A DNA stretch of 64,000 bases, taken from contig NZ_JAGOBJ010000001.1 in the NCBI RefSeq assembly GCF_017983445.1, positions 437,632 to 501,631 on the forward strand, in the 5' to 3' direction. Shown in pieces: positions 39,228-45,406 of the stretch (position 1 is its first letter; the number at the start of each line of letters is the position of its first letter). The translations under genes and the position numbers were made by a program. Source of the DNA: Halomonas sp. (GTDB lineage: Bacteria; Pseudomonadota; Gammaproteobacteria; Pseudomonadales; Halomonadaceae). The notes beneath the pieces were generated by a model. That model was not told where the DNA came from. It saw only the letters and a list, made by a program, of their open reading frames with translations, and searched no databases.

Positions 39228-39599
39228 CTTGCCAAGCCTGTACCGGGTTATGTTAGGCGCTATGTCAAAGACAGTGTCAGAGTCAATGTAGAAAATATGA
39301 CTGCCCGGTGCCTAGGTTGGCAACGCATTCAACAGGGTTTTTACAAAATAGTGCTTATTTAAATTAATTTTAAATAAGCTTTAGTTAAACTATTTCCTGC
39401 CGATACTAACCCCCGGTGAGATCCGTTATTGAAGAGAACGTCGTAATGGCGCTCAAGACCGTCATTCATATCGACTTTTTTGGAAAATGAATACCGAGTT
39501 CTTGCTCTAAGCGGTTATTCTTAGCCGCTTTATTAGATGTGCCTTTTCAAAAAAAGCAGACGTTACCTGCATGACTTCTGACACAAGCGAACACCCATA
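39228..39599 (+). other. Gene-free stretch before chemoreceptor 1
   Basis: No gene is seen. It contains a 27-base AT-rich inverted repeat, GCTTATTTAAA (39353-39363) with TTTAAATAAGC (39369-39379), directly followed by a sigma-28-like promoter (annotated separately), and a small hairpin AAGCGG/CCGCTT near 39509-39530 in the leader of the chemoreceptor mRNA. Confidence 0.6.
39380..39406 (+). promoter_or_regulatory. Sigma-28 (FliA)-like promoter of chemoreceptor 1
   Basis: TTTAGTTA (39380-39387), an 11-base spacer, and GCCGATAC (39399-39406). The consensus is TAAAGTTT-N11-GCCGATAA, so the -10 matches 7/8 and the -35 matches 5/8 with exact spacing. The same element stands before the other two chemotaxis units in this window. 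Confidence 0.7.
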
Positions 39600-41720
39600 A
39601 TGAAAAAGACTTTCAGTATCCGCGCCATGTTAATCAGCCTTTTTATCATGGCAATGCTGGGCGCGGTTGCGCTTGCCGTTACCGGTTGGTTTACCAACCA
39701 GCGGCTTATCAACTCTCAGCACTATATTACCGGTGAGGTGCTTCCCCTCCAGGATGCCAGCCGCCGCTTGGTGCTTACCATGGCCGCCTTTGGCCAACGT
39801 CATAATGAGTTGCTCGCCGCAGAAAATGAGTCAGCTTTGGAAAACATCGTTTCTGAAGAGGCGCTTAATCAGCGTTTTATGGATGCACGCGAAGCGCTAC
39901 AAAGGGAGGGAGCTCAGGCGCAGCTGGCAACGCTCGATAGTCATTATAATGCGTTATTGGACGGTGATGCAGAGCTTGAAATGGTGCGCCAGGTTGAGCT
40001 TAGCCTGAAGTCGCAAATGGACGCCCAACTGAATGATATGGAAATGTTCGTGAGTAGCGCCATGAGCAGTGCTGAAGAGATCGCCAACGTTTCGGTACTT
40101 AACCAGCAGCGCTATCAGCGTGATCAAAGAGATCTTATGGAGGCGTGGCGCGAAGATGAAATGACCACGCTACCCACAACGATTCTTGACGGCCTGTTTG
40201 TTCAAGGCGCTAATATCGGTCGTTATAGTGCTGATGTGCGTACGGCCCTGGCGATGTTGGCAGGTTACGGTCACCAAATGGTACAGGCGCCCAATAGCGG
40301 GATGCTTTCCATGTTGCGCCAGCAGTTTATCGAAACGCAGTTCAACCAGGTGCGTAGTTCATTATCCTCTATTCTCGATGCACCTAATTCCGATAGAAAT
40401 CAGGCACGCATGGTCAATGCGCTGTCTGAGGTGGTCGACGAGCTTGAAAGCATCATGGTAACCGGCCCCATGTCGGTATCCATACTGCGTGAGCAACAGC
40501 TGGAGCTCAGTGAGCAGGTTCAGATAGCACTTACTAATGTCGCAAGCGCCATGCAGGAAATGCAGCAAGCGCTAGGCGAGGTAGAAAGCTATGCCGTCGC
40601 ACAGGCGGATAGTGCCGTTAACCGAGCCGAAGCTCTGGCCGCTACCGGTTTGACGCTGTTGATCAGCGTAACGCTTGGAGTTGTTGCGCTACTCGCAATC
40701 TTTGGCTGGCGCACACTGGTACGCGTTCTAGGTCCGCTGGTGGCCATGCGCCGCCAGATGGAAAATATCAGCGGCGCTGCCGGGGAAAATGCCGATCTCT
40801 CACAACGCCTGACGTTACAGCGTAATGATGAAGTAGGCCAAACCGCCCAGGCCTTTAACCGGATGATGGATACGTTTGAAGGCATGGTTGCGCAGATTCG
40901 GGAAAGCGCTGAGGCCATTGCGGCAAGTAGCCGACAGATTGCCAGCGGTAATGAAAACCTCTCCCAGCGTACCGACCAGCAGTCCGCGTCGCTGGCGGAA
41001 ACGGCGTCCAGCCTCGAGCAAATCACCTCGACCGTGAAGCAGACTGCCGATTACGCGTACCAGGCAAGAGATGCCAGTGGCAGTGTCGATCAGCGGGCAC
41101 GTTCGGCAGGCGATGTGGCCAAGCGCACCACAGCCGCGATGAGTGACATCCGCGAAGCGAGTGAGAAGATCACCTCGATCATTAAAGCCATCGACGATAT
41201 TGCCTTCCAGACCAATTTGCTGGCGCTCAATGCCTCCGTCGAGGCTGCTCGGGCGGGCGAACAGGGGCGTGGCTTTGCGGTGGTCGCCCAGGAAGTGCGT
41301 AAGCTTGCCGGGCGCAGTGCGGATGAGGCAGCGCAAATCCGTCATCTGGTCGATGATAGCGTGGCCAAGGTCAGCGAGGGTGAGCAGTTGGTCAATGCGT
41401 CCAGCACGCACCTGCAGGATATTATCGATAGCCTTTCGGAAGTAACGCGTTACGTCACGGAAATTGCCGACGCAACGCAGGAACAGTCGACAGGAATCGA
41501 GCAGATCAACCAGGCGATTTCCCAGCTGGATCAGGTAACCCATCAGAATGCCCGCCTGGTACAGGATGCTTCAAGCGCGAGCCAGGAACTTGATCAGCGT
41601 GCTGGCGATATGCATACGCTGGTTAGCCGTTTTCGGGTCAGCGATAGCGCAGGGCAGCATCACTTAGCCTTGCCTTCTAGCCAGACACGGCGACTCTCTG
41701 AGCCAGAAGAAACTTACTAA
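39600..41720 (+). CDS. Methyl-accepting chemotaxis protein 1
   Basis: A 706-residue transmembrane chemoreceptor. It has TM1 at about residues 9-31, a long helical periplasmic sensor (32-345), TM2 at about 346-370 ([20 protein letters not shown]), HAMP at 371-425, and a cytoplasmic signalling hairpin at 430-690 whose tip reads [40 protein letters not shown]. It signals to CheA/CheW. The all-helical sensor of about 300 residues suggests a four-helix or double four-helix bundle, a type that can bind ligand-loaded periplasmic proteins. From residue about 410 to 686 it is identical to the receptor at 43236. The C-terminal end EPEETY lacks a CheR-tether pentapeptide. A sigma-28-like promoter lies upstream. 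Confidence 0.93.
40827..41658 (+). repeat. 832-bp near-identical repeat, copy 1 (chemoreceptor signalling domain)
   Basis: Matches 44472-45303 (offset 3645) with six base differences that I count by eye, all synonymous. Identity begins inside the HAMP/signalling junction and stops just before the divergent C-terminal tails. Upstream halves of the two genes are clearly more different. Confidence 0.95.
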
Positions 41721-41763
41721 GCGCTATGGGCGTTAGGTTCAGCCACTGACTGGACCTCCTTTT

Positions 41764-41793
41764 AAAAGCGAACTCATTGAGTTCGCTTTTTTT
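41764..41793 (+). terminator. Terminator after chemoreceptor 1
   Basis: AAAAGCGAACTCA and TGAGTTCGCTTTT form a long perfect stem followed by more T residues. Confidence 0.9.
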
Positions 41794-41872
41794 ATAATCG
41801 TCTATCAAGGATTTTTTCTTATTATTATCAATTGTTAACAAAATATTAAATTTTACTAAAAGAAAATAGTTA

Positions 41873-41899
41873 TTTAGTCGTATGCTTTGCGGCCGATAT
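41873..41899 (+). promoter_or_regulatory. Sigma-28-like promoter of the binding protein / chemoreceptor 2 unit
   Basis: TTTAGTCG (41873-41880), an 11-base spacer, GCCGATAT (41892-41899). The -35 half starts TTTAGT like the element before chemoreceptor 1, and the -10 matches the FliA consensus 7/8. The rest of the 41794-42041 gap is AT-rich with no gene. Confidence 0.6.
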
Positions 41900-42041
41900 G
41901 TCTGTAGGTGAATCGATAAAGTGCAGAACGGAAGTAGACAATACCCGCTTCACCGGTGCAGGCGACCATGTGAGAACTGAGTGACAAAGGCAGTCGTCCG
42001 CTTAAAAAACTACTTAATATAGATACTGACTAGGAAGGGCA

Positions 42042-43196
42042 ATGCGAAAGCTGAAAATACTGATGTTGATAGGAGTGTTGGCTTCGTCCTTGGCTCAGGC
42101 AGAGCTGAAATTCGGTATCGTGGCACCTGAAGCGGGTGACGCTGCTTCTATGGGGCTGGGTATGCAGGAAGGTATCAATGCCTATTTTGCCGAGATAAAC
42201 GCAGCGGGTGGCGTCAACGGGCAACCCTTGACGCTGGTGACTCATGATGACCGGTACGACCCTTTACTGGCAGCACAGAATACGCGGGAGCTGATCGCCG
42301 ATGAGAATATTCTGGCTTCTATCGGCAATGTGGGAACGCCAACGGCTGCCGTTACCGTTCCTATTCACAATGAACAGCAAATGCTGTTATTTGGCGCTTT
42401 TACGGGGGCAGGACTACTGCGCCAATCTCCTCCTGATCGCTATATCATCAATTATCGGGCAAGTTACGCAGAAGAAACCGCCACTATGATTGACGGGCTA
42501 TTGGAAGCCGGGATAGCGCCAGAAGAGATTGCGTTCTTTACTCAAAACGATAGTTTTGGCGATGCGGGCTATTACGGCGCGATAAGCGCTCTGCATGATC
42601 AAGGGATAGAAGACACAGATAGTCTAGCGCATGGACGGTTTACTCGAGGCACGCGCAATATTCATCAAGGGCTTGCCACCATCCTTCAGGCGCCAGTCCC
42701 GCCGCGAGCTATTATCATTGTCAGCACGTTTGGCCCCGCTGCCGACTTTATTCGTGAGGCCCGCAAGGATCTCGAAGATGTGCTGTTTTTGAACGTTTCC
42801 TTCGTAGGTAGCCAGGCACTGGTTGATGAACTGGGCGATATGGCCGAGGGCGTCATGGTCACCCAAGTGGTGCCACCGCTGGATTCAACAATGCCCGCTG
42901 TTGAAAGCTATCACACAGCCTTAAAGCGCTACGCAAGCGGCGCCGAACCTAGCTTTATTTCGTTAGAGGGATACCTGGCGGCCAAGCTGTTCGTTGAAGG
43001 GCTCAAATCTGCCGGAGAGCAGCCGAGTAGAGAGGCGATTGTGAATGGATTGCTCAATCTAGGAACCATCGATATTGGGTTGGAGGAGCCGTTGATGCTC
43101 AATCCCGACCATCATCAAGCCAGTCATGCCGTTTGGCCCACCATTATTCGTAATGGGCATTTTGAGCCGGTGAACTGGTCGTCGCTTACCCCTTAA
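42042..43196 (+). CDS. Periplasmic substrate-binding protein, LivJ/Peripla_BP_6 family, likely chemosensory
   Basis: A 384-residue type I periplasmic binding protein. The signal peptide MRKLKILMLIGVLASSLAQA is cut at residue 20. The mature part shows the family pattern KFGIVAPEAGDAASMGLGMQ, INAAGGVNGQPLTLVTHDD, and FTQNDSFGDAGYYGAI in the hinge region. Such proteins normally bind amino acids or related small molecules for ABC importers, but no permease or ATPase gene is nearby. It sits between two chemoreceptors, 39 bases before the second. Presenting the bound ligand to those receptors is therefore the likeliest job (inference). The ligand is unknown. Confidence 0.9.
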   Translation: MRKLKILMLIGVLASSLAQAELKFGIVAPEAGDAASMGLGMQEGINAYFAEINAAGGVNGQPLTLVTHDDRYDPLLAAQNTRELIADENILASIGNVGTPTAAVTVPIHNEQQMLLFGAFTGAGLLRQSPPDRYIINYRASYAEETATMIDGLLEAGIAPEEIAFFTQNDSFGDAGYYGAISALHDQGIEDTDSLAHGRFTRGTRNIHQGLATILQAPVPPRAIIIVSTFGPAADFIREARKDLEDVLFLNVSFVGSQALVDELGDMAEGVMVTQVVPPLDSTMPAVESYHTALKRYASGAEPSFISLEGYLAAKLFVEGLKSAGEQPSREAIVNGLLNLGTIDIGLEEPLMLNPDHHQASHAVWPTIIRNGHFEPVNWSSLTP

Positions 43197-43235
43197 CCGG
43201 CAAATTTCTACTCCTCCCCTGACAGCGAAAAAAAC

Positions 43236-45350
43236 ATGAAAAGATCTTTGAGTATCCGCGCCATGCTGATCGCGCTATTTCTTGCCGCGGTCGTCGGCGC
43301 TTTGGTGCTGGCTGTGACTGGATGGGCGACTAATCAGCAGCTGATTAACTCTCAGCGCCACATTACTAATGACGTCATGCCGTTACAAAATGCCAGCCGC
43401 AATCTTGTGCTGACAATGGGAGCATTTGGTCAGAGGCATGCCGACTTACTGGCCGCCGACGCAAGTGATATCGATCAAGTAACAACCCAGGCGTTACTCA
43501 CCGCGCGTTTTGATATGGCATTCGATACTTTGCGCAGTGGCAAAACCGCTATTGAACAGCGCGATCAGTTGGCGAAGATCGATACTGATTATCAGCAGTT
43601 GAGCGCGAGTGATACGGTGCTGGAGCAGGTGCGCCGAGAAGAACTGTCACTGACCGTTCGGATGGGTGAGCGACTGGCGCAGATGGAGGCAATGATCGAT
43701 AAAGTGATGTTGAGCGCTGAGAATATTGCAGGGCGTACCGCCTTGGCTCAAGTTCGGCATGAACGCAATCAGCGTGAGCTTATGATGGCGTGGCGCGAAG
43801 ACGGGATGACCACGCTCCCCACACAGTTACTCGATAACATGTTTGAAGGTCAGGCTGATGTCGGCCAGCTTACCGGTAATGTACGCATGGCGGTTGCCAA
43901 GCTTTCCGATCTGGGCAGGCAGATAACCTTGGCGGACCGCCGAGATGCGCTGGTACATCTGCGTGCTAATGAGATTGCCCAGCAAGTTATGCTCGCCCGC
44001 CAGTCGCTCAACGCCATTGCCAGTGCATCCAGCACTGAGGTTGGGCAGCGAGACCTGATTGGCGAACTCGATCAGATCATCATGGATCTTGAAAGCTTAA
44101 TGGTGGGAGATACGGATTCAGTTTTCATGCTTCGCGAACATCAGCTCGATATGGCGTCACGTGTTCAGGCAGCATTGGACGAGGTAGCCAGCGCAATGGA
44201 TAGCATGCGTGCTCAGCTGCACAATATAGAAGTTTATGTGGTAGAGCAGGCGGATAGCGCCGCCGGGCAAGCCGAAACGTTGGCAAATGCTGGTCGTACG
44301 CTGTTGATTACCGTTACGCTTATCGTCATTGCGCTACTGGCAATCTTTGGCTGGCGCACGCTGGTCCGCGTTCTAGGTCCGCTGGTGGCCATGCGCCGTC
44401 AAATGGAAAATATCAGCGGCGCTGCCGGTGAAAATGCGGATCTTTCCATGCGGTTGGCGCTTAAGCATAACGATGAAGTAGGCCAAACCGCCCAGGCCTT
44501 TAACCGGATGATGGATACGTTTGAAGGCATGGTTGCGCAGATTCGGGAAAGCGCTGAAGCCATTGCGGCAAGTAGCCGACAGATTGCCAGCGGTAATGAA
44601 AACCTCTCCCAGCGTACCGACCAGCAGTCCGCGTCGTTGGCGGAAACGGCGTCCAGCCTCGAGCAAATCACCTCGACCGTGAAGCAGACTGCCGATTACG
44701 CGTACCAGGCAAGAGATGCCAGTGGCAGTGTCGATCAGCGGGCACGTTCGGCAGGCGATGTGGCCAAGCGCACCACAGCCGCGATGAGTGACATCCGCGA
44801 AGCGAGTGAGAAGATCACCTCGATCATTAAAGCCATCGACGATATTGCCTTCCAGACCAATTTGCTGGCGCTCAATGCCTCCGTCGAGGCTGCTCGGGCG
44901 GGCGAACAGGGGCGTGGCTTTGCGGTGGTCGCCCAGGAAGTGCGTAAGCTTGCCGGGCGCAGTGCGGATGAGGCAGCGCAAATCCGTCATCTGGTCGATG
45001 ATAGCGTGGCCAAGGTCAGCGAGGGTGAGCAGTTGGTCAATGCGTCCAGCACGCACCTGCAGGATATTATCGATAGCCTTTCGGAAGTAACGCGTTACGT
45101 CACGGAAATTGCCGACGCAACGCAGGAACAGTCGACAGGAATCGAGCAGATCAACCAGGCGATTTCCCAGCTGGATCAGGTAACCCATCAGAATGCCCGC
45201 TTGGTACAGGATGCTTCAAGCGCGAGCCAAGAGCTTGATCAGCGTGCTGGCGATATGCATACGCTGGTTAGTCGTTTTCGGGTCAGCGATAGCGCAGGGC
45301 AGCCTGCGCTATCATTGCCACAACACAAGGCGCCTACACAGTTAGCCTAA
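43236..45350 (+). CDS. Methyl-accepting chemotaxis protein 2
   Basis: A 704-residue paralogue of the receptor at 39600 with the same plan: TM1 at 9-31, helical periplasmic sensor to about 345, TM2 ([20 protein letters not shown]), HAMP, and signalling hairpin. The sensor domains share only part of their residues (common stretches are [28 protein letters not shown] and MTTLPT), so they may respond to different ligands or to different states of one binding protein. The signalling half is identical in protein sequence to receptor 1. It lies 39 bases after the binding-protein gene with no terminator between, so the two are co-transcribed. Confidence 0.93.
44472..45303 (+). repeat. 832-bp near-identical repeat, copy 2 (chemoreceptor signalling domain)
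   Basis: Partner of 40827-41658. Direct repeats of this length and identity are a substrate for gene conversion and for deletion of the 3.6 kb between them, which would remove the binding protein and fuse the receptors. Confidence 0.95.
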
Positions 45351-45373
45351 CTGCCACCGCAGTGCTTTCTTTC

Positions 45374-45406
45374 AGCGAGCGTGCCCTGGGTACGCTCGCT
45401 GTTTTG
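45374..45406 (+). terminator. Terminator after chemoreceptor 2
   Basis: AGCGAGCGT (45374-45382) and ACGCTCGCT (45392-45400) are followed by GTTTTG. Confidence 0.85.

Follow-up and report, generated by a model that had tools for sequence, protein, structure and literature searches.

A LivJ-type binding protein and a TorS-fold chemoreceptor as a probable two-part chemosensor in Halomonas

The 64,000-nucleotide stretch of Halomonas sp. DNA analysed here (contig NZ_JAGOBJ010000001.1, positions 437,632 to 501,631; the window), from a genome of 3.9 Mb in 16 contigs, encodes a LivJ-type solute-binding protein (SBP) between two chemoreceptors, M1 upstream and M2 downstream. Our results make it likely that the SBP and M2 form a two-part chemosensor in which the SBP binds the ligand. 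The view that a dedicated binding protein signals by way of a chemoreceptor was favoured because the gene pairing is conserved, no LivHM-like permease pair is free in the genome, the M2 sensor has a TorS-type predicted fold, and outputs are swapped among homologous pairs. Gene pairing, predicted fold, output swapping and the loss of a patch from receptors without an SBP are the observed parts of this proposal. The SBP would bind a small solute in the periplasm and dock on M2's helical sensor of TorS type, the probable site being a patch around Gly166 and residues 225–256. Docking would alter helix packing, and the change would pass through HAMP and the methyl-accepting chemotaxis protein (MCP) signalling domain to the CheA kinase. 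SBP-M2 would thus steer chemotaxis as TorT acts on TorS, and M1, a related receptor that lost the patch, would operate without the SBP.

Conserved pairing and transporter context

The pairing was followed through a family sample of 250 genomes, from which 55 SBP loci were fetched besides the window's own. The SBP was found in 56 genomes and the sensor in 63 (both in 56, the sensor alone in 7, the SBP alone in 0). A receptor lay directly 3′ of the SBP in 55/55 fetched loci, with the receptor gene interrupted in L043. At this Halomonas llamarensis locus (L043, the same as L176 and L245), a transposase-like open reading frame (ORF) on the opposite strand was seen by eye to split the receptor gene. 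M1 stood beside SBP-M2 only in the window and in Vreelandella (formerly Halomonas) zhanjiangensis (L064/L155) among the family loci. These results showed that the conserved unit is the SBP plus M2, not the trio, and that the two-receptor arrangement is a lineage-specific neighbourhood. An earlier sequence-only reading had proposed a binding-protein-dependent chemosensory cassette of three genes, with gene order to be surveyed in relatives; the SBP-receptor order held throughout that survey, and the inclusion of M1 failed outside V. zhanjiangensis.

Among the named loci (80 listed of 215 matches, many from the same genomes as the family sample), the sensor gene followed the SBP directly in 74/80, the median gap, which rests on automatically chosen starts, being 40 nt. 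At L190 the receptor ORF had 408 aa and began 216 nt from the SBP; the contig ended after the SBP in L203, and L205 had no partner gene. The sensor gene was divergent from the SBP in L217, and in L234 a 710-aa gene lay upstream. At L208:5938-11181 (Candidatus Magnetocorallium), the gene after the SBP encodes an NMT1-type binding protein, and the next a PAS/GAF/GGDEF protein.

Alternatively, the SBP could serve ordinary transport by supplying a shared permease of the branched-chain type, and its position next to a receptor could be incidental; we consider this unlikely. Its fold is that of LivJ: it matched Peripla_BP_6 (PF13458) at 164.5 bits, and its N-terminus was signal-peptide-like by eye, as the sequence-only reading had it. 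One permease can serve several SBPs, as with LivJ and LivK, which counts for transport. Of the features of a LivJ-type importer SBP, the PF13458 fold and signal peptide were present, and nearby permease or ATPase genes were not found. The absence of transporter genes noted earlier was borne out: permease family PF02653 gave 12 matches genome-wide and 0 on the window's contig. The genome has six PF13458 proteins above cut-off, the SBP included. Four other SBPs each have a PF02653 pair next to them, which leaves no LivHM-like pair unassigned; three single matches lie outside those pairs (C12:247774, C14:187921 and C14:248026). Another SBP (L002, C13) likewise has no adjoining PF02653 match, a point on the side of transport.

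Against transport, the pairing held in all fetched family loci despite variable neighbours (a flavin reductase was found in 30/55), the SBP never occurred without the receptor in the 250 genomes, and SBP homologues are fused to, or precede, other signalling proteins. A pattern search (Walker A plus an LSGGQ-like motif) also found no importer-sized ABC (ATP-binding cassette) ATPase near the SBP. It gave 0 ORFs in 55/55 relative loci (8.7–13.1 kb each) and, in the named loci, one ORF within 2.5 kb of the SBP, whose 1163 aa (L233) far exceed the size of an importer ATPase; in 10/80 named loci the sequence on one side of the SBP is shorter than 2.5 kb. As a control, the pattern was run on 12 short loci that surround permeases of this genome and detected ATPases in 3/12, so its sensitivity is known only roughly.

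Sensor fold and swapped outputs

According to PMC6321045 and PMC10662104, the periplasmic binding protein TorT interacts with TorS. The M2 sensor, modelled with AlphaFold2 from 72 sequences, reached a predicted local distance difference test (pLDDT) score of 92.5 and a predicted template modelling (pTM) score of 0.81. In Foldseek, ranks 1–4 were TorS-TorT complexes (E 2e-5 to 6e-5). VIA-align scored TorS at 18.0–19.2, against 14.7 for McpZ, 13.9 for PilJ and 13.3 for McpS; scores to about 13 are common among helical bundles by the tool's own warning, and unrelated human TTYH3 reached 15.0, which leaves TorS a lead of 3–4 units. By the model, the periplasmic sensor of M2 is of the TorS fold.

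The sequence routes to TorS failed. The long sensors of M1 and M2 matched no Pfam family, and neither receptor matched the TorS families PF21689 or TIGR02956. TorS was absent among the 17 PDB matches of the M2 sensor profile (A3), and hhalign of the M2 sensor against E. coli TorS gave a probability of 0.7%. The TorS link therefore rests on the fold search and on the kinase partners of homologous SBPs. Judged from the model, SBP-M2 most likely works like TorT-TorS and is not filed as TorS because M2 fails the TorS sequence models.

Docking itself was approached through a read-through fusion of the L188 SBP and sensor. Its uncontrolled, indirect model, built on 15 fused and 40 unfused rows, reached a pTM of 0.72 and a pLDDT of 84.5; by our own estimate, two such domains placed independently would be expected to have a pTM of about 0.5. 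This suggests that the SBP and the sensor take up a defined position relative to each other, and packing against the transmembrane helices could produce that pTM too.

The proteins that follow the SBP differ in output. In the named loci, 60 of the 74 post-SBP sensor genes (60/80 loci) encoded an MCP signalling domain within the sensor ORF itself. In 7 Legionella/Fluoribacter loci the post-SBP protein had 971–979 aa, and the one scanned (L216) was a hybrid histidine kinase that matched TorS model TIGR02956 over most of its length (325 bits, below cut-off). In the Magnetococcales a GGDEF-EAL protein (L219) and a GGDEF protein (L224) followed the SBP, and the remaining 5/74 sensor genes ended before any output, at a contig end or insertion.

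An order-level search found a homologous SBP in 33/341 genomes. Six f39 loci that were fetched had a large membrane protein 3′ of the SBP; the three scanned were histidine kinases, and two of these scored 27.9 and 24.9 bits for TorS_sensor_domain (cut-off 27), the former being the L135 kinase with PF21689. At L135:3749-8815, the SBP, this TorS-type histidine kinase, an HATPase_c_2 protein and a receiver-SpoIIE phosphatase form one cluster. Twelve SBP matches of the search lay inside open frames of 869–909 aa. One of these frames, L126:4983-7607, the only one scanned, encodes a fusion of a Ser/Thr kinase with an SBP domain of this family, and similar frames occur in L127-L131 and L133; an 889-aa ClpV-like gene (named by eye) lies near the L126 fusion. 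In L132, L134 and L141 the SBP precedes a protein whose sensor is Cache-like and in which no output was recognised, and at L142 no SBP partner was seen. A class-wide search for PF21689 itself found 1/143 genomes.

At phylum level, 45/398 genomes had an SBP match, and 20 loci were fetched. Most of the closer matches stand before a GGDEF or MCP protein, with no partner at L284 and an early end at L277. Among the weaker matches, an MCP follows the SBP in L290 and L291, and L287-L289, L292 and L293 have no partner. These partnerless weaker homologues limit the signalling link to the close subfamily; it does not hold for every SBP homologue. Taken together, we think it somewhat probable that a LivJ-type SBP and a TorS-fold docking domain with a hallmark glycine form a portable two-piece sensor, which has been plugged into chemoreceptors, histidine kinases and cyclic di-GMP enzymes, and that receptors losing their SBP shed the patch and become solo.

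Receptors without an SBP and the conserved patch

In the 7 family genomes with a receptor and no SBP orthologue, five gave no SBP match at E 1e-5 and two gave weak ones (4e-8, 6e-12). We compared 45 family SBP-paired sensors with these solo receptors and with the M1-like receptors found in the window, V. zhanjiangensis, G192 and G102; the comparison excluded 5 distant paired rows and G230, which is divided between two contigs. In a tree of 60 rows the solo label requires four changes. The M1 clade holds six rows (window M1, L155 M1, L236, L237, L242 and L243); its stem measures 0.78, and the median end branch is 0.057. Other solo rows (0.30–0.75) and some paired rows (L191 0.77, L183 0.49) have long end branches too.

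As reference we took the 69 positions conserved in at least 95% of paired sensors. The M1-clade rows keep 74–77% of them, the four other solo rows 80–91%, and paired rows, each left out in turn, at least 91%. The losses are concentrated in residues 154–173 and 225–256. These segments, defined on M1, were tested on the four other solo rows, in which 27/41 losses fell in segments holding 20/69 positions (0/20000 shuffles as extreme). The four most divergent paired rows lost 4–6 positions, 1–2 of them inside the segments. Nine positions were lost in at least three of five lineages (p 5e-5); the count lost in at least two was not above shuffles (p 0.17), and the losses in L235 and L238 may go back to a single event (support 88/81).

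Gly166 is glycine in 71/71 SBP-paired sensors across orders and outputs, and in 9/9 further paired sensors reaching the position, three of them already-counted loci. It is lost in the M1 clade, being Asn in M1, and in L235, L238 and L239, and it is retained in L241. Relative to what their signalling domains predict, M1-clade sensors fall 10–14 points short in identity to paired sensors; the shortfall is 9 points in L239, 4–5 in L235 and L238, and none in L241. The L241 receptor (G023) is solo, with Gly166 kept, normal divergence and no SBP orthologue found; from its sequence, L241 may have lost its SBP recently. Two candidates were set aside: five f39 kinases, whose glycine in the Gly166 column of A3 needs a six-residue insertion and was not counted, and a small deletion reported to render E. 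coli TorS constitutive, which could not be tied to Gly166.

These comparisons indicate that receptors without an SBP have mostly lost the same conserved patch, and that M1 is probably a solo receptor independent of the SBP. They bear on the proposal of the sequence-only reading that a single SBP serves both M1 and M2, with two responses to one ligand. In the window and in V. zhanjiangensis the SBP does lie between M1 and M2, and the sensors of the two receptors, 45% identical, share ancestry in the tree. Against this stand the M1-clade or similar solo receptors of the 7 SBP-free genomes, two further genomes (G192, G102) in which an M1-like receptor in the M1 neighbourhood lies about 127 kb from the SBP-M2 pair, the low share of paired-conserved positions kept by the M1 clade, and the Asn in place of Gly166. 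The proposal is improbable on this evidence, and we do not retain it.

It could also be that the SBP signals as an antagonist or ligand buffer, with no docking on M2. Docking is itself a deduction and the fused-model pTM is indirect, which favours such a role; the TorS-type fold is known for docking TorT, and one patch is repeatedly lost once the SBP is gone, so we give this little credence beside docking on M2.

Locus layout and comparison with known systems

The ORFs of the window confirmed that M1, the SBP and M2 follow one another on the + strand, and that the SBP ends 39 nt before M2, as first described (Table 1). Each receptor has HAMP and MCPsignal domains by Pfam scan. The nearest named relative among the matches listed is V. 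zhanjiangensis, with an SBP 92% identical. Terminator-like sites in the region numbered 6, against 6.3 expected by chance; the stem after M1 suggests, from sequence, that M1 may be on a transcript separate from SBP-M2. At 41700-41720, M1 ends in EETY (EAETF in L155 M1), which we take to resemble the NWETF tether for methylation enzymes; M2 has no such ending.

Table 1. Features of the M1-SBP-M2 locus (window positions)
Feature	Position	Strand	Basis or remark
M1 chemoreceptor, 706 aa; probable solo, SBP-independent	39600..41720	+	HAMP + MCPsignal; shares a tree clade with receptors of SBP-free genomes; patch lost
M1 periplasmic sensor, between transmembrane helices 1 and 2	39681..40661	+	45% identity with M2 sensor
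M1 near-identical signalling block (putative gene-conversion tract)	40819..41658	+	
Terminator-like stem-loop 3′ of M1	41764..41790	+	such sites no commoner than chance in region
SBP, 384 aa, Peripla_BP_6, signal peptide about residues 1–20	42042..43196	+	
M2 chemoreceptor, 704 aa, SBP partner	43236..45350	+	domains, conserved pairing
M2 sensor with predicted TorS fold	43317..44297	+	AlphaFold2 pLDDT 92.5, pTM 0.81; TorS top match
M2 candidate docking segment 1, residues 154–173 incl. Gly166, Val173	43695..43754	+	conserved if SBP-paired, often lost in solo
M2 candidate docking segment 2, residues 225–256	43908..44003	+	conservation/loss pattern
M2 matching signalling block	44464..45303	+	
Terminator-like stem-loop 3′ of M2, 13 pairs	45373..45401	+	same chance caution as M1 stem

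The solo receptors of L235-L240 occupy the neighbourhood of M1 (by eye, from gene starts), and in the window the SBP-M2 pair separates M1 from the NAD(P)-binding gene downstream. An ungapped, near-identical block of 840 bases is common to the signalling halves of the two receptors. Over residues 420–690 they are 97–100% identical in 30-codon steps, and each is 84–98% identical to its V. zhanjiangensis orthologue. Since M1-M2 identity exceeds orthologue identity, the simplest reading of the sequences is a recent M1/M2 gene conversion.

SBP-receptor pairs are hard to find experimentally, as stated in PMC6321045 and PMC11113362. Chemoreceptors that act via binding proteins, and their docking sites, are mostly unmapped; the natural losses of the SBP point to a small receptor patch and one directly testable glycine, and the tandem M1/M2 offers a built-in negative and positive in one genome. 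If the same module drives other outputs, a ligand found once could be read in several pathways.

In Halobacterium, BasB/BasT and CosB/CosT have a dedicated binding protein beside the transducer, as here, in an archaeon. The closest solved relative of the SBP is 4kv7 (405.5 bits), a leucine/isoleucine/valine-binding-like protein of Rhodopirellula baltica; it is 47% identical to the L188 fusion in a Foldseek alignment. In the literature searched, which covered few subscription papers, we found no description of a TorS-type chemoreceptor paired with a LivJ-type SBP. In MBP-Tar, AibA/AibB-TlpB and CtpL, as is proposed here, the sensor of a chemoreceptor receives its signal from a binding protein; according to PMC6321045 the sensors concerned are of the 4HB, sCache or HBM type, whereas that of M2 is TorS-like, and the HBM receptor McpS reached 13.3 against it in VIA-align. 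Unlike MBP, AibA/AibB and CtpL systems, the SBP here has no adjoining transporter. The nearest fold likeness of the M2 sensor is TorT-TorS, which senses trimethylamine N-oxide (PDB 3o1h, 3o1i, 3o1j). No sequence homology to TorS was detectable, and the systems differ in that TorS is a hybrid kinase while M2 has an MCP output, the SBP is of LivJ type (PF13458) unlike the TorT system, and E. coli torS and torT are divergent whereas the SBP and M2 genes are co-directional.

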